Positions 1-6,287 of a stretch of 64,000 nt of DNA are shown here, one piece after another. Made by a program: the position numbers and the translations under genes. The stretch is from Planctomycetota bacterium (lineage in GTDB: Bacteria > Planctomycetota > Phycisphaerae > Sedimentisphaerales > Anaerohalosphaeraceae). Location: positions 372,001 to 436,000 of the forward strand of contig JAKPDO010000019.1 of NCBI GenBank assembly GCA_029552545.1, read 5' to 3'. Within the stretch, counting starts at the first letter, position 1; each line of letters begins with the position of its first letter. The notes below the pieces were generated by a model. The model did not search any database, was not told the DNA's origin, and worked only from the letters and a program-made list of their open reading frames with translations.

Positions 1-392
1 AAGGAAAAAACGGTTCTTTCGGTCTTATCCTCAACGGAACGGCCGACGATGGAAAATCCCGGATATTTCATCCCGTTAATGTCTCCTTCTTCGCTCATCA
101 ATGCGGCATTAGAAAGACCGATCTGCTTATGATTATAGTCGGAAGAAAATAAACGTCCCTGGCACATAAAGAATGGGGCATAGCCTCTGTGAGAATGTCT
201 TTCTGTCCAGTCAAACCCAACAACAACAGGGATTTCTGTTTTCGGAGCCGATGTCGGAGCGGACAGAAACATTTGAAGATGAATCAGAAAGGCCCCTAAA
301 GAGAATAGAATTAGAACCGCTGCAAGAACAAGAAGTACTGTATGAAATTTCTTCATGGTTTTCTTGCCTTTCCGTAAGGTGTGTGTCTTCAT
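1..392 (-). CDS. Membrane-anchored hypothetical protein, 3' end cut by the window edge
   Basis: From base 392 down to base 1 the minus strand stays open for about 130 codons, so this gene is partial and its C-terminus lies outside the window. The N-terminus is basic and is followed by one hydrophobic stretch (LLVLAAVLILFSLGAFLI) that looks like a signal anchor or signal peptide. The rest is hydrophilic. Two in-frame ATGs exist. The one at 356 (MKKFHTV) has AAGGC about 8 nt upstream and directly precedes the hydrophobic segment, so it is the more likely start. The one at 392 has AGGA almost touching it. No family was recognised. It is the last member of the row of small exported or anchored proteins downstream of the RHS remnants. 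Confidence 0.5.
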   Translation of the reverse strand, partial: MKTHTLRKGKKTMKKFHTVLLVLAAVLILFSLGAFLIHLQMFLSAPTSAPKTEIPVVVGFDWTERHSHRGYAPFFMCQGRLFSSDYNHKQIGLSNAALMSEEGDINGMKYPGFSIVGRSVEDKTERTVFS

Positions 393-480
393 TCCTTTTT
401 CTGCTGTGCCTATAGGTCCAATGCCTATACCGGCACTAAAGGTGAATTTCCATGTTATTGTAATTATTGCCTGGAGAACA

Positions 481-606
481 TCACCGCATAGCCCTCTTGG
501 GCAAAAGGCGTAATAATTGCCCAAAATCTTCCGGGCCGGCTGTGCCCGTACCCTTTGGAACGACAAAGAATCGGTTGGCGTACATATAGAGTGCTTTCGT
601 CGGCAT
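481..606 (-). pseudogene. RHS-derived fragment with a 41-codon open frame
   Basis: Bases 504-540 match bases 5904-5940 of the RHS core at 34 of 37 positions, so this stretch contains RHS-derived DNA. Here it is read in a different frame: an ATG at 606 opens a 41-codon frame ending in TGA at 481, with residues such as YMYANRFFVVPKG before the matching part. There is no good ribosome binding site and no protein family match. The simplest reading is a relic of an RHS core cassette; a real micro-protein cannot be excluded. Confidence 0.35.
504..540. repeat. 37-bp copy of an RHS core segment (partner 5904-5940)
   Basis: The two copies differ at only three positions and share the first 20 bases exactly. 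In the intact RHS frame this DNA encodes the stretch around QILGNYYAF. Confidence 0.7.
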
Positions 607-608
607 TC

Positions 609-1073
609 TTATTTCTTTTCTAAGTAACTTAGAATTCGTTCGACCGGAAGGGGGGAAAAGGTTCTCTCCTCGATCTTTGTGGAAAGAAGAAGCTTCCCTA
701 AATGATTTGGGTCAGCACTCTCGGATTTTAGAGGCAGCCAGTTATTAGGACGATTTAAACCGTGGGTATGAAATTCTACAATTTTGTTTTCTTCCGTTTT
801 GTAACAGAGATCAAGACTCCAAATGCCGCCGGTCCATTCCGTGGTGTTGAGAAGAAAACAGATTTGCTGATTGTCCGGATCTCTTGCCGTATAAAGACGG
901 TCCTTTCTGGGATAAGGATGACCGAATTCGTAAAAACTTGTGTCCTCGCAGAGTCTGTGATAAGTTGAAAAAACCGCTCCCGAAAGAACAAGGCAGGCCA
1001 GACACAAAAGGGTGATGAGACTGTTCTTAATCACATCGGACTCCTTGGATTTTTCGTTAGACATCTGCATCAT
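609..1073 (-). CDS. Small membrane-anchored protein, intact paralogue of the broken gene at 1138-1581
   Basis: The protein has up to 154 residues with one N-terminal transmembrane segment (about residues 16-37) and a soluble domain outside it. The soluble domain carries RDPDN, then W-x-GG-x-WSL, an YK-x3-N-x-IV-x-F segment, and PNNWLPLK followed by GKLLL. These motifs recur in the same order in the neighbouring disrupted gene, so the two are duplicates. The start is uncertain: a GTG at 1034 has AAGGAG six bases upstream and may be the real start, while the ATG at 1073 overlaps a TGA in another frame. The family is unknown. Position after RHS-type fragments and membrane anchoring would fit an immunity protein, but that is inference. 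Confidence 0.55.
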   Translation of the reverse strand: MMQMSNEKSKESDVIKNSLITLLCLACLVLSGAVFSTYHRLCEDTSFYEFGHPYPRKDRLYTARDPDNQQICFLLNTTEWTGGIWSLDLCYKTEENKIVEFHTHGLNRPNNWLPLKSESADPNHLGKLLLSTKIEERTFSPLPVERILSYLEKK

Positions 1074-1137
1074 GTTAAGACCTGCTCTGTTTTTATGAGT
1101 CGCGGGCGGTTTTTTGAATACTTCTCCGAAGGCTGTC

Positions 1138-1581
1138 CTATTGTGCCTGCAGGTAACTCCATATGGACTCCCTGGGGTTTTCGCGGAAACCTCTGTGCTC
1201 CACTTCCTCGATAAGCAGGAGTTTTCCCGGCGGGGCGTGGTCCGGCCCTTCCAGTTTCAGCGGCAGCTACTGTTTCGGATTGTTCGGACATGCTGTCGAA
1301 AAACAAACGATGCTGTTGTCGTCCTGTTTGTAAAAGATGCGTAAACTCCACGCTCCGTGATTCCATTCGTCCGCATCCACCAGGAACCGGACCTTGTGAT
1401 TGTCCGGATCTCGAAAGATGTATGTATGCCCTGCAACTGGAAGCCGATATCGCGCCTCCATTTCCTTTTTCAGCAAGTGTCTGGAATAAAGGAGCACGGC
1501 AAGAACCAGCAAAAGAATATTGCATAAGAGACACAGAAAGAGGATAAGAAGATTTTTCCCCATATTATCGATACCTCCCAT
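1138..1581 (-). pseudogene. Paralogue of the 609-1073 gene, interrupted by an amber codon at 1267-1269
   Basis: The frame begins at ATG 1581 with a transmembrane anchor (LFLCLLCNILLLVLAVLL). It then follows the 609-1073 protein: FRDPDN, EW-x2-G-x-WSL, YK-x2-DNSIV-x-F and PNN. At the position of the paralogue's Trp in PNNW it has TAG. Reading through that stop, the same frame continues with LPLKLEGPD, GKLLLIEEVE and SIWSYLQAQ and ends at TAG 1138-1140. Similarity on both sides of the stop shows a TGG-to-TAG nonsense change rather than a gene end. The ATG overlaps the TAA of the preceding open frame (TAATG). Confidence 0.7.
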
Positions 1582-1715
1582 TATTGTTCTCTTGGCGGAT
1601 TGGATACCGCCGGCGGAAAAGGAAGATGTCTGTAATCATCAGACGACTTATCTCTGCATGCAGGCAGAGCTTTACAAGACGACCATGCTCTCTCAGCACG
1701 CTCTTTATCTGTACC
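1581..1715 (-). pseudogene. 44-codon open frame after a stop, probable tail of a displaced RHS tip
   Basis: Immediately after the TAA that ends the 1716-2123 gene, the same frame stays open for 44 codons and then ends in a TAA that overlaps the ATG of the next gene as TAATG. The predicted residues (GTDKERAERAWSSCKALPAC, later PFPPAVSNPPREQ) have paired cysteines and a proline-rich end resembling the tip of the RHS gene at 5355. There is no start codon with a binding site. It is either the C-terminal end of a displaced RHS tip or a readthrough extension of the upstream gene. Confidence 0.35.
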
Positions 1716-2123
1716 TTATTGTCTTTTCTTCATTTCTTCCTGGTCAATATATCCCAATAACTCCCCAATTCCATAAGGATGTTCGGTTATGCTGTTGAAA
1801 AAATCGTATCTATAGGTGGCCGCTCCATCTAAATGGGTAATTGCACGGGACTTCAGCCCTTTTTGTTTAATTTTGTCGAATATAGATTCGGGTATCCGGC
1901 CGCTGGACTCATGCCCTGTGTGAAGAAAACGATTATAATAACGTCCATCGCTGTAAACGGTCGTATATTGAATGGGTTCTTGGCCATAGACGCCGATTAT
2001 GTTCAGCAGCACGGTTTCTCCTGCAGTCTGATTCACGGTTTCAATTTTCTGCAGGCTGCTGTGCCGGCATCCCCAAAAAACAATCAGGGGTACCAAAATG
2101 GGTTTTAGATATTTGGAAACCAT
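1716..2123 (-). CDS. Small exported protein, possibly a lipoprotein
   Basis: The product has 135 residues and starts at an ATG with AGGAG about eight bases upstream. The N-terminus (MVSKYLKPILVPLIVFWGC) is a short signal-like sequence ending in a cysteine that could be lipidated, although the lipobox is not canonical. The rest is soluble, with no recognised domain. It sits between two start-less RHS-like frames, in the same place in the repeated layout as the other small anchored proteins of this island. An immunity role is only an inference from position. Confidence 0.5.
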   Translation of the reverse strand: MVSKYLKPILVPLIVFWGCRHSSLQKIETVNQTAGETVLLNIIGVYGQEPIQYTTVYSDGRYYNRFLHTGHESSGRIPESIFDKIKQKGLKSRAITHLDGAATYRYDFFNSITEHPYGIGELLGYIDQEEMKKRQ

Positions 2124-2158
2124 TGTTTCTCCTGTTTAATCGCTTTTTGCATTTGGGT

Positions 2159-2381
2159 TTATCGTCTTTTTCCTTTTTTAAGACAACATCCGTGAATGGT
2201 TTTTTGAACATATCGACGACAATTGTTTATGATGGGGCAAGAATGCCAGCCTGAATTTGGGGATGCCATTACACACGATAGAATTTCACCGCAACTTGCT
2301 CGGCAACATTTCTTTCCGGCCCCTGAACCCCATTTGGGAGTTCTTTCACAGGCCCCGTGAAGCGGCTCAATCTGAGGATAT
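2159..2381 (-). pseudogene. Start-less Cys-rich frame, probable displaced RHS tip
   Basis: The minus strand is open from about 2419 to a TAA at 2159-2161 with no ATG, GTG or TTG at the front. The residues include ACERTPKWGSGAGKKCCRAS, then GEILSC, WHSCPIINNC and HGCC. This Cys-rich composition resembles the tip of the orphan RHS cassette at 2944-3640. The frame fills the otherwise empty 258 bp between two genes. It is probably the remains of a toxin-tip-like cassette, lacking both a core and a start. Confidence 0.35.
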
Positions 2382-2957
2382 CTACTTTTTTTCTTCGCCG
2401 ATACCTTTTCCCTCGTTTTTCATTAATTCTTTATAGAGAGCCGTCGACAATTTCCGATACGTTCCGGATAAAATAAAAGACTTCGGTCCTGTAAATAATA
2501 GAACTTTTTCTCCTGTGATTTTATCACACACAATATCATCTCTAATAAAAAGATCATCCTTTTGAATTCCATATCTTATAAAGAATTCCATATATGGAAC
2601 GATGAGCCAGCACTCAGGAATCTTCTCGTTTTCCGCAGCAGGCACCCTTGTGAAAACCTCTGTATGGTCACAGCGTATCGAATAAAAATGTTTGTCATCT
2701 TCCCCTTCAACCCGCAAATAGCCCTTTTCCATAAGTTCTTTTTGACTCGTGGGCATTCTTTTGTTTTCTTGAATAAACAATTTAAGGCAAGAATAAACTT
2801 GATAGATCGGGATTTCGCACTGATATTTGATTACGGCCGACACATACCCCGCCGCAAGAATCAAAATAACTGCCAATAATAGTCTTCTGATATGTTTTAA
2901 TCCGCTCAATTTCATACTCTCTTCCTTCGAGTACGCTCGAAGATTATGGGCATTCAT
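2382..2957 (-). CDS. Membrane-anchored hypothetical protein
   Basis: Up to 191 residues. A transmembrane segment (LLLAVILILAAGYVSAVI) follows a short basic N-terminus, and the rest is a soluble domain with a YQVYSCLKLFIQ helix and a KRMPTSQKELMEKGYLR stretch. That last segment is reminiscent of pseudopilin-like and other Planctomycete exported proteins, but no family is assigned. The start may be the ATG at 2915 (MKLSGLK), which has GGAAGAGAG just upstream. The ATG at 2957 would overlap the end of the RHS orphan by 14 bases. It directly follows that orphan tip, the usual place for an immunity gene. Confidence 0.5.
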   Translation of the reverse strand: MNAHNLRAYSKEESMKLSGLKHIRRLLLAVILILAAGYVSAVIKYQCEIPIYQVYSCLKLFIQENKRMPTSQKELMEKGYLRVEGEDDKHFYSIRCDHTEVFTRVPAAENEKIPECWLIVPYMEFFIRYGIQKDDLFIRDDIVCDKITGEKVLLFTGPKSFILSGTYRKLSTALYKELMKNEGKGIGEEKK

Positions 2958-3640
2958 TTTTTAATAGGGAATAAGCTGAACAACTGTTGCCCAAGCAAAA
3001 TAAGCCGGTCCAGAATCTCGTGGTTGCTTCCCTATTCCCAAATGCATGCCGGTATGTGTCTGCTGTTCTGCAACTGATTCTTGCACTTGCAAGTGTTATG
3101 CCTGTTCCTTCTCTCTCGTCAGTAATACCTGGCGTTACTATAAATTTTCCCCCGCTGCCTGCAAAAATCGTTATGATATATGCAGGACCTCCTTTATCAC
3201 ATTTAACAACCACCCAAAAATGTGAAGGGGTGCCGGATAAATCACTTTTTACGCCTTCCAATGTAACTTCACACCAGCAGCATTCTTCGGTGTGCCAGTC
3301 GTAAAGGGAGACGTTTTTCTGGTTTCGATAATGACAGCGGCAAACCCGGCCGGCAGAAATCCCCTGCGGATTGGGAATTGTCTCTTGCGTGCAGGTGCTT
3401 TGAGACGCCGAAATGACAAGGCCGTCGGGAAGAACAACGGGATAATATTCGACTGTTTTTATCTTGCAGCAGACCTGCTGATTGTTTTTCGCTGTTAAAC
3501 CCATAGGGTCCTTTTGATGAATGGGATTCGAATCCACATACTCATATCTGTTCATTCCGTCGGTGTATTGTATTGTCGGACCAAAGGGGTTAACGCTTCC
3601 GCCGGCCGGGGCATCATAGCGTGCCTGATAACGTGAGGAC
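2944..3640 (-). pseudogene. Orphan RHS C-terminal cassette (tip without core)
   Basis: The frame carries the end of an RHS core (PAGGSVNPFGPTIQYTDGMN, then DPMGL) followed by about 180 residues of a Cys-rich tip (QQVCCKIKTVEYYP, CHYRNQKNV, ECCWCEVTLEG, ending SCSAYSLLKNECP). Bases 3551-3610 match the intact core at 5719-5778 at 53 of 60 positions, and the similarity stops abruptly at 3610. No start with a binding site lies in frame ahead of the core segment. This is the structure of a silent RHS tip that could be swapped onto the main gene by recombination. Confidence 0.6.
3551..3610. repeat. 60-bp RHS core homology block (partner 5719-5778)
   Basis: The block is identical to 5719-5778 at 53 of 60 positions and ends sharply at the outer edge. 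It encodes the conserved VNPF...QYTDGMN segment just before the variable tip. Confidence 0.75.
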
Positions 3641-3763
3641 TTATCTGACGCCTGGAAGAACAGCCAGCCACAGAAGCAGCCGCAAAAGCAGCACAAACAG
3701 CAGAACCCCTCCGCCGCACAGCAAAAAAAGAAAGATTGGTTCCAGCTCAAAATACTTTTTCAT
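3641..3763 (-). CDS. 40-residue membrane peptide
   Basis: An ATG at 3763 opens a 40-codon frame, MKKYFELEPIFLFLLCGGGV followed by LLFVLLLRLLLWLAVLPGVR, with one long hydrophobic helix. It ends at TAA 3641, just before the orphan RHS frame. The binding site is weak (CAGG about ten bases upstream). A small membrane protein in a toxin-tip region is plausible, but composition alone is weak support. Confidence 0.3.
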   Translation of the reverse strand: MKKYFELEPIFLFLLCGGGVLLFVLLLRLLLWLAVLPGVR

Positions 3764-3840
3764 GGGGAAACCTGCGTAGATAACTGACCTTTCATTTCTT
3801 GCAACTGGACAAATAGGGCAGATAACGTTTAAAAAGGGCA

Positions 3841-4113
3841 TTATCCGTTTTTTACAAACAGCTTGTGTGTAAGGTATGCGGTAACGATGCCTATATAAGG
3901 AAGCCCCAGACACCCTATGCAAGCCCCCGGACCTCCGCCTGCAATAAGAATCTGGGCAATAATATTTACCAGAAACATCAGGATTCCTCCAAAACAAAGG
4001 GATAGCGTTCGTCTCCGTACGATTATTGTAAATAGGATAATCAGAAGAATGCAGACGCCCTGAATGAGCAATGACCAATGTTCTCTTTTCATAGCTGCGA
4101 ACCCGAGTGTCAT
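3841..4113 (-). CDS. Small multi-span membrane protein
   Basis: 90 residues with two or three hydrophobic segments (ILLIILFTIIV, LCFGGILMFLVNIIAQILI, a Gly/Cys-rich turn, then LPYIGIVTAYL). The ATG at 4113 overlaps the TGA of the preceding 50-codon frame as ATGA, which suggests coupled translation. A second Met at 4092 (MKREHW) is an alternative start. No family recognised. It is the third gene of a coupled chain that starts at 5284. Confidence 0.45.
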   Translation of the reverse strand: MTLGFAAMKREHWSLLIQGVCILLIILFTIIVRRRTLSLCFGGILMFLVNIIAQILIAGGGPGACIGCLGLPYIGIVTAYLTHKLFVKNG

Positions 4114-4262
4114 TTCACAAATTCTTCGTGGACAAAAAACGGAGAGGAGCCGACGGCGTCAAATGGGGTTCCCACCGATATAACGAAGGATAGAGGAGGA
4201 GCAAACCACATCGCCGCATCATTTCCTCCTTCAAAGTTGTAGTTGTCTTTGAGAATGTTCAC
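4110..4262 (-). CDS. 50-residue frame linking two genes by overlapping stop/start codons
   Basis: A GTG at 4262 overlaps the TGA of the upstream gene (GTGA), and the frame ends in a TGA that overlaps the ATG of the next gene (ATGA). It encodes 50 residues beginning VNILKDNYNFEGGNDAAMWF and ending FVHEEFVK, without a membrane helix. Both junctions are four-base overlaps typical of translational coupling, which is the main argument that it is translated. No family match; it could also be a leftover C-terminal fragment. Confidence 0.35.
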   Translation of the reverse strand: MNILKDNYNFEGGNDAAMWFAPPLSFVISVGTPFDAVGSSPFFVHEEFVK

Positions 4263-5284
4263 GGACAGGACATCCCTATTTTTTTGAGGTCAAAGATGCA
4301 ATCGACGGAATCCTTCTGAAAATTCCAGCAATAAACCTTCTCTTTGTCCCGAAGCCAATATACGGTTTTCTTCTCCGGTATTAAATCAAGGATGGAGACC
4401 TTGTCTGTCTCCAAAGTGTGTCTGAGGACGCTGTTCTCTTCCGGATTTATGACAACCAAATCCGTCTTCTCGATGAAGGCCAGGTAAGGGTAGGAACTCC
4501 GCAGCCATCTTATATTTGAATTGGAATGGTAAATTATCTTTTCGCCGACATAAACGTCGCCGCCGCTCATAAGAACAGCCGTATCCTTATAAATGCCTGA
4601 CAAGAATCTCTCCTGCTCGTACGGAATGCTCTGAGAGATGGAAATCTTCTTTTGATCTATAGTAACCTCCAGTAAGGTTTTTTTATCCAACGGGTGAATA
4701 TAAAAGGAATGGTTGTTCTTCCAATAAAGAACGGAGGCAAAAACAGGCGGTTCTGTGAGGGGAACGGCACTTTTGCCGCCATCGAAAGACACAGCCACCG
4801 ATCCAAAGTAATTCTTCTTGTTCCGTCGAAAAACAGAATAATCCTGCCCGGGCCTTCCAGCCAGTATCCTGCCGTCGGGACTCCAGCACAGTCCGTCCAC
4901 AAGAGCCGGCCAAGAAAGGGGCTTTATCGTGAACTTGCCGGGAGGATTGTCCCGGATGCAGAGCAGCTTATAGGACGGCCGGAATCCGAGACGCGTCTGC
5001 ATGACGCTGACCCATAATTCGTTCTCTGCCCGCCAGTCCAGCGACAGGATGTATTCGGCCTCTAAAACCTTCTTTGCGATGTTATCTGATAAATCTGCGA
5101 TGTACAGGAACGACCGGCGTCTGGTTGGAAGATTGTTTTGATCCAGCTCTAAGATGCAGACAGCCATTTTATCTCCTGAGGGGTCTGCTTTTGTTGAATA
5201 AGGCCATATCGCATAAGAGGCGGCTTTGCCTTCGCTGCTTCCGAAAAACAGGCACGCCAGAAAGAAACTCGCAATCTTACTCAT
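4259..5284 (-). CDS. Exported beta-propeller-like protein
   Basis: 341 residues. The N-terminus (MSKIASFFLACLFFGSSEG) is a signal peptide. The remainder shows repeated strand-turn patterns with WSPDG, SFDGG and similar propeller-like motifs at roughly 45-residue spacing, as in WD40/TolB-like repeats, so an exported beta-propeller is likely. The ATG at 5284 has GAGG seven bases upstream. It follows the RHS tip by 70 bp and leads the coupled chain down to 3841. Function unknown; it could be a partner of the RHS tip. Confidence 0.5.
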   Translation of the reverse strand: MSKIASFFLACLFFGSSEGKAASYAIWPYSTKADPSGDKMAVCILELDQNNLPTRRRSFLYIADLSDNIAKKVLEAEYILSLDWRAENELWVSVMQTRLGFRPSYKLLCIRDNPPGKFTIKPLSWPALVDGLCWSPDGRILAGRPGQDYSVFRRNKKNYFGSVAVSFDGGKSAVPLTEPPVFASVLYWKNNHSFYIHPLDKKTLLEVTIDQKKISISQSIPYEQERFLSGIYKDTAVLMSGGDVYVGEKIIYHSNSNIRWLRSSYPYLAFIEKTDLVVINPEENSVLRHTLETDKVSILDLIPEKKTVYWLRDKEKVYCWNFQKDSVDCIFDLKKIGMSCP

Positions 5285-5718
5285 AAAATGCCCTCACATA
5301 ATTGTAGAAAATCTGTTTCCTGTCATGTCCGGAAAGGGTAAAAATCACTGTTGCTTATTTTGATGGCCATGGATCTTCTGGCGGAAGATCAATCCCCCCT
5401 TCTCCATTATTCTTCATCCGTTGTGTTTCATGTATATTACAGTTGTTTAAACAGAGGTGAAAATCTTTTAATTTTCTAACATTACAAATGGTCTTAAATA
5501 GTTTCTTCCAAAAACTCTCTAAAATTTCTTCCACGACATCTTCCCAACCCGGTATGGGATTGAACTTGTCAATAAAAAACCGAGCATTGCAGTATAGAAC
5601 ACATGTCTCATGATCAAACTTATCGCCCCACGGCCAATCCCAATCTTTCGGATTGTCTGATTTTAAACCCCAAGGGTCACCCCAGCGGCATGAATTACAT
5701 CTTGCGTACAGGTAAACA

Positions 5719-5778
5719 TTCATTCCGTCGGTGTACTGGCTTGTCGGGGCGAAGGGGTTAACGCCTCCGCCGGCCGGG
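5719..5778. repeat. 60-bp RHS core homology block (partner 3551-3610)
   Basis: Second copy of the block described at 3551-3610, here inside the longer RHS core. Confidence 0.75.
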
Positions 5779-5903
5779 TCGAGGCCCAGCGGGTCGGGCT
5801 GGAGGAATCGGCCGGTGTCCGGGTCATAATACCGGGCGCGATAGTACATAATTTCCAAAATGCCCGTTTGGGAAGTTCCCACCCGGTCCAATTCCCGCCC
5901 CGT

Positions 5904-5940
5904 AAAGGCGTAATAATTGCCCAGAATCTGCCAGGCCGGC
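5904..5940. repeat. 37-bp RHS core segment (partner 504-540)
   Basis: Second copy of the segment described at 504-540, here in the intact RHS reading frame. Confidence 0.7.
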
Positions 5941-6287
5941 CACGGCACCGAACCCCACGTTGCCGAATAGGGCCGCATTCGACCGTAAACATCGTATTCA
6001 TAGCGTCTTACGACCGTTCCGGCCGCATCGAACAGCACGGCCGGACTGTACAGATGGTCATGGCCGTAGAGATACTCCGTCCCCGTCGGCTGCCGCATCA
6101 TCAAAACCTCATCGATGTAGTTGCCGAATACAAACGTCCGCGAATCGCTTTCTATTCCGCTGCTGTTGACCGAGGTCCGCAGCAGCACCCGCTGGTCATC
6201 GTAATAATACCGCTCGGCCGTGTTGTTCGGATTGAGCTTCTCAACCCGTCGCCCAAGTGCATCATTTCTCCAACCAGCAAAGTATCA

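Follow-up and report, generated by a model that had tools for sequence, protein, structure and literature searches.

The window (the whole stretch of DNA analysed here, 64,000 nucleotides, C7:372001-436000) belongs to an assembly of 3.09 Mb in 58 contigs, and the named relatives of the lineage are metagenome genomes of Sedimentisphaerales and Phycisphaerales. At its start lies a minus-strand array of RHS core pieces, variable C-terminal tips and small anchored or exported genes, whose left end is at about window position -2374 (C7:369626), ca. 2.4 kb past the window edge. In the order in which the array is read, its features are:

5664..6284, minus strand: RHS core (TIGR03696), 5'-truncated, ca. 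the last 207 residues, without ATG start; same core start in G003:C15 and G004:C24
5355..5663, minus strand: tip 1, ca. 103 aa with 5 Cys, directly after the core end
4259..5284, minus strand: 341-aa exported protein, putative immunity to tip 1; a homologue adjoins an RHS tip in G014
3841..4113, minus strand: 90-aa membrane protein, which stays beside the 341-aa gene in G003
2944..3640, minus strand: end of an RHS core (3609-3496) joined to tip 2 (183 aa, 13 Cys), with core and tip homology
2382..2957, minus strand: TM191, 191-aa membrane-anchored protein, putative immunity to tip 2, which it overlaps by 14 nt
2162..2344 (fragment 2159-2381), minus strand: C-terminal stub of a Cys-rich NC...CCLK tip, matched by phmmer to relatives' tips
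1716..2123, minus strand: LP135, 135-aa probable lipoprotein, with a homologue in G036:C64
1584..1715 (fragment 1581-1715), minus strand: C-terminal stub of a probable Peptidase_M76-type tip, matched by phmmer to RHS tips
1267..1581, minus strand: 104-aa membrane-anchored protein with an in-frame stop, of the family of genes that follow M76 tips
609..1073, minus strand: 154-aa membrane-anchored paralogue of the 104-aa gene, matched by phmmer to an M76-tip partner
489..540, minus strand: core remnant with the motif ILGNYYAF, similar to the window's own core and that of a sister species
1..356, crossing the window edge to ca. -198, minus strand: 185-aa exported protein, with a homologue in the RHS array of G003:C46
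-232 to -639, minus strand, outside the window: core end (-262..-372) plus tip 3
After tip 3, minus strand, outside the window: 236-aa anchored protein, with a homologue after an RHS tip of G073
-1456, minus strand, outside the window: core remnant
-1498 to -2307, minus strand, outside the window: ankyrin-repeat lipoprotein
-2327 to -2374, minus strand, outside the window: terminal core remnant

The core matches the NCBIfam family Rhs_assc_core with an E-value of 2.6e-16, and forms with tip 1 a single frame, open from 6284 to 5355, in which neither ATG nor another start codon precedes a GTG at 6188. Its end is repeated at 3609-3496 and -262..-372, in each case directly ahead of a variable tip. 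The fragment at 2944-3640, for which a TTG at 3750 is a possible start, matches both the Rhs_assc_core family (E 4e-4) and the core (E 7e-11), and the 37-bp remnant at 504-540 shares 92% identity with the truncated core at the start of the array (E 3e-7) and 95% with the core of a sister species (E 1.7e-10). An anchored or exported ORF lies immediately downstream of each fragment, and tips 1-3 and most of the small genes are still open reading frames. The core end of tip 2 is preceded by a strongly hydrophobic ORF of 40 residues (MKKYFELEPIFLFLL..., 3641-3760, minus strand), which is kept in G003:C34.

Fragments 2159-2381 and 1581-1715 show no core similarity, and were nevertheless counted in the preliminary description among three start-less RHS-like fragments which, with a core remnant, follow a truncated core and each precede a small exported or anchored protein. 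That layout is borne out, because both match the C-termini of core-fused tips in relatives, of which they retain the last 60 and 44 residues, respectively. In phmmer searches, with E-values computed in a set of ca. 120 tips, the first stub matches the tip of a complete 1138-aa RHS protein in G036 (6.6e-13) and two tips in G003 (1.1e-8 and 3e-7), and the second matches the RHS tips in G003:C40 and G001:C49 (3.4e-10); the corresponding tblastn E-values are 1.4e-8 and 1.6e-7. Chance similarity is ruled out as the origin of the stubs by these values and by their position directly before a member of the matching partner family. The tips in G003:C40 and G001:C49 exceed the Pfam cut-off for Peptidase_M76 (37.7 and 30.2 bits, cut-off 25.2), and the relatives' homologous tips combine this profile with the HExxH zinc motif; the window stub (1712-1584), reduced to the last 44 residues, lacks the motif.

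Tip 2 is found on longer RHS frames, with 410 open residues in G001:C23 and 648 in G051:C60, and a contig scan with this tip retrieved no relatives beyond these two genomes. Tip 1 weakly resembles (shuffle P ca. 0.01) the tip of an RHS protein of 1725 aa in G014:C177, which has the same partner family, and tip 3 shows suggestive homology (shuffle P ca. 0.01) to a tip of G073; homology of tip 3 to a G067 tip was unsupported. Tip fragments thus recur in relatives on longer or complete cores beside the same small-gene families, the outcome that the preliminary description had named as support for its model.

Sequence searches of Pfam, NCBIfam and the PDB with the tips and small proteins encoded in the window matched nothing besides the core. 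The AlphaFold models of tip 2 (pLDDT 56) and TM191 (pLDDT 72, with a long N-terminal helix), each built from a three-sequence alignment, gave no significant PDB fold match, and we dropped the NlpC/P60-like reading of tip 2, suggested by a conserved His followed by a Cys, and the pilin-like reading of TM191. Tips near this lineage are rich in cysteine (ca. 6.4%), and the M76 tips of the relatives are the only ones that belong to a recognisable enzyme family. Since many tips have no known toxin domain and their partners are exported, the tips might be the ends of surface adhesins or structural proteins, polymorphic for another reason such as escape from phages or predators, and the small proteins might be surface factors. 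We consider this very unlikely in view of the M76 peptidase tips, the one-to-one coupling of tips and partners (see below) and a layout that matches that of orphan toxin/immunity modules (PMC3150448).

The small genes lead to the same relatives. A homologue of the 341-aa protein, which is beta-propeller-like according to weak PDB profile matches to propeller proteins, lies directly after the tip of the 1725-aa RHS protein in G014:C177 (E 1.2e-12). Likewise, a TM191 homologue directly follows the tip 2 homologue in both G001:C23 and G051:C60, the LP135 homologue in G036:C64 (E 9e-11) is the second gene after an RHS gene bearing a related tip, and the homologue of the 236-aa protein follows an RHS tip in G073 (E 5e-11). 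Paralogy links the 104-aa and 154-aa genes, whose family is found directly after M76 tips in relatives (phmmer 6.6e-18 for the 154-aa protein against an M76-tip partner); homology of the 104-aa gene runs past its in-frame stop to position 1123. The 90-aa protein is 93% identical in G003:C34 and has homologues in G051:C74 and in G049:C16, a contig with an RHS array, and the 185-aa exported protein has a ca. 86% identical homologue in the RHS array of G003:C46. As a separate observation, RHS partners in L120 (G001:C63), L165, L170, L182 and L045 (4956-5480) carry a membrane helix followed by a motif, either 'NGRYP'-type or H-X9-DG-like, that is reminiscent of pseudopilins; pilin-like proteins may thus have been a source of immunity proteins.

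Comparison with sister species indicates how the array changes. In G003 and G004 the same truncated core, with its truncation point in common, adjoins the same flanking gene as in the window, which from its sequence alone we take to be radical-SAM-like; in G001, G002 and G005 this flanking gene is present without the core. The G003:C15 contig is 90% identical to the window at the DNA level from the flank through the core, up to position 5719, just before the core/tip boundary, beyond which it has a different tip, of the NC...CCLK type, and a different partner of 316 aa. This orthologous core with another tip and partner supports the tip replacement that had been proposed for the locus. A second contig, G003:C34, is colinear with window positions 5377-3634 (90% identity) and then continues with a short core remnant, the sequence corresponding to -2326 to -2388, and the flank beyond -2615 (84%); it therefore lacks a 6-kb block that in the window runs from tip 2 through the ankyrin gene and has core sequence at both ends. 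Another tip and a 163-aa protein lie upstream of the 341-aa gene in G003, and only ca. 22 bp of tip 1 are left, although the 341-aa and 90-aa genes are retained, the pattern expected if a tip is displaced and its protector kept. A reservation is that most relatives are known from fragmented metagenome assemblies, in which contigs end at the cores. In G004:C24 (L142, 15547-15942), CRISPR-like direct repeats lie near the decayed core at the orthologous RHS locus.

The core (dN/dS 0.16, dS 0.20 between G000 and G003) and the 341-aa protein (dN/dS 0.36, dS 0.28) are under purifying selection. Their dS values are lower than those of the flanking genes on the respective sides (0.45-0.54 for the core, 0.64-0.71 for the 341-aa gene), and we deduce that exchange of the cassettes is more recent than the divergence of the flanks. 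The locus had been described as a graveyard, a term that is only partly apt, since selection maintains the core and the 341-aa protein. In its extreme form, the array would be a pure pseudogene graveyard, consisting of RHS leftovers and small, unrelated ORFs that currently have no role, as the 5'-truncated core, the stubs, the in-frame stop of the 104-aa gene and the lack of a full-length RHS gene in the assembly would lead one to expect; such purifying selection, together with the open frames of tips 1-3 and an exchange that is recent relative to the flanks, makes this unlikely.

Profile searches of the genome, in which repeats can drop out of assemblies of this kind, found no full-length RHS carrier and no RHS_repeat matches elsewhere in the assembly; the core-end matches are five, all of them short frames or tails. 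Two further short RHS tails of this genome, in C16:1-300 and C56:102945-103895, both have ahead of them a similar stretch that is not RHS (translated ...RIRSP...DGDGVYP). For want of a full-length carrier, the cassettes are probably silent here.

Of the 161 genomes of the order, 115 have RHS core ends, and several of these stand in long tandem runs. The complete genome G042, for instance, has ten core ends in ca. 18 kb, with core stretches of 300-660 bp repeated at 90-98% identity and followed by different tips. We examined co-inheritance in a set of 108 tip-partner pairs from the order: where tips are homologous (less than 90% identical), the partners are also homologous in 21 of 29 comparisons, or ca. 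13 of 21 once nine that derive from one near-identical array are merged, versus 54 of 5740 (0.9%) comparisons without tip homology. Related tips thus had unrelated partners in 8 of the 29. Separately, the RHS arrays of G003:C40 (L046), G001:C49 (L049) and G152:C628 (L096) are 97.8-99.98% identical over 5-8 kb, in species that differ by ca. 20% elsewhere and one of which belongs to another family, reflecting either recent transfer or misbinned contigs.

Close partners, defined as distinct ORFs at most 60 bp from the tip stop, have an N-terminal hydrophobic segment or a lipobox in 57 of 68 cases (84%), compared with 23 of 67 (34%) background next-genes elsewhere (Fisher 4e-9), as predicted with the same simple hydropathy rule for both sets. 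Most of them, the 57 anchored by this rule, thus do not have the usual cytoplasmic globular form of immunity proteins. An immunity-like role, previously deduced from position only, gains from the co-inheritance of tips and partners, but the association is not strict: TM191-family genes are RHS-linked in ca. 6 of 14 independent loci, far above the level expected by chance from RHS density, and stand alone in the rest, with members lacking an RHS neighbour in G009, G018, G027 and G029. Such solitary genes touch on the objection, raised beforehand, that the small genes might occur away from RHS elsewhere, although they also fit orphan immunity.

Anchoring and co-inheritance would equally be expected of dedicated tip partners, such as membrane anchors, chaperones or receptors that aid the display or loading of tips. 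We regard this as quite unlikely for the small anchored proteins, because G003 keeps the 341-aa and 90-aa genes without tip 1 and with a different tip/partner pair upstream, and because TM191 and TM154-type genes outlast the loss of their tips; retention without a tip fits immunity, not a loading partner. Moreover, the partners are mutually unrelated though the carrier core is the same.

Together, our results indicate that the region is very probably an array of orphan cassettes, each made of a tip and an immunity gene, as known from Rhs polymorphic toxins, in an assembly that has no full-length carrier; its tips would have been displaced by recombination at the conserved core end and its protectors kept. 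From sequence comparisons, we infer that the tips are toxins and their anchored partners immunity proteins. A tip and its downstream protector gene would be inserted or displaced through recombination at the conserved RHS core end, after which displaced tips would decay into stubs and protector genes would tend to persist. The tips would be delivered as toxins to neighbouring cells, and the anchored proteins would neutralise them outside the cytoplasm, so that the toxins would presumably take effect in the envelope or be halted at the membrane.

Storage arrays of this type are known. In CDI and Rhs loci, orphan tips lack starts, and orphan immunity genes are expressed and protective (Poole et al. 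2011, PMC3150448); evolved Salmonella reportedly began to express an orphan Rhs toxin (Koskiniemi et al. 2014, PMC3967940). The enterobacterial orphan rhs-CT/rhsI and cdiA-CT/cdiI modules described in these two sources resemble our array in the row of tip fragments, each with a small gene and, probably here too, mostly without starts, and also in the exchange at conserved pre-tip sequence and in immunity genes that outlive their tips. They differ in that here there is no full-length carrier in the assembly, the putative immunity proteins are anchored or exported and the tips are Cys-rich. The polymorphic toxin systems in the survey of Zhang et al. 2012 (PMC3482391) share the RHS carrier, metallopeptidase tips, standalone cassettes, planctomycete members and ankyrin-type immunity, but all except a few of their immunity proteins are cytoplasmic, and the survey lists a single lipoprotein family of immunity proteins and no beta-propeller. 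In our lineage, by contrast, anchored partners predominate, lipoproteins are found among them and one partner is weakly propeller-like. In Vibrio, sequential displacement of type VI secretion effectors reportedly leaves arrays of orphan immunity genes as well, with a different carrier (PMC5361080). The outward-facing putative immunity is thus the unusual departure of a known kind of array.

We tentatively propose, as a generalization with somewhat less than an even chance of being right, that the RHS toxins of this order as a rule act in the target envelope, with anchored, outward-facing cognate immunity almost throughout (a membrane helix, a lipoprotein or possibly a propeller-like protein), disulfide-rich tips, and cassettes stored and exchanged in arrays, possibly without a carrier. 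At this one locus, comparison of sister species displays the steps of C-terminal displacement: the same core, a swapped tip, a kept protector and a block cut at core repeats. The finding points to lineage-wide antagonism systems with protectors outside the cytoplasm, for which the site of toxin action is directly testable, and to the lineage as a source of many uncharacterised families of Cys-rich tips.
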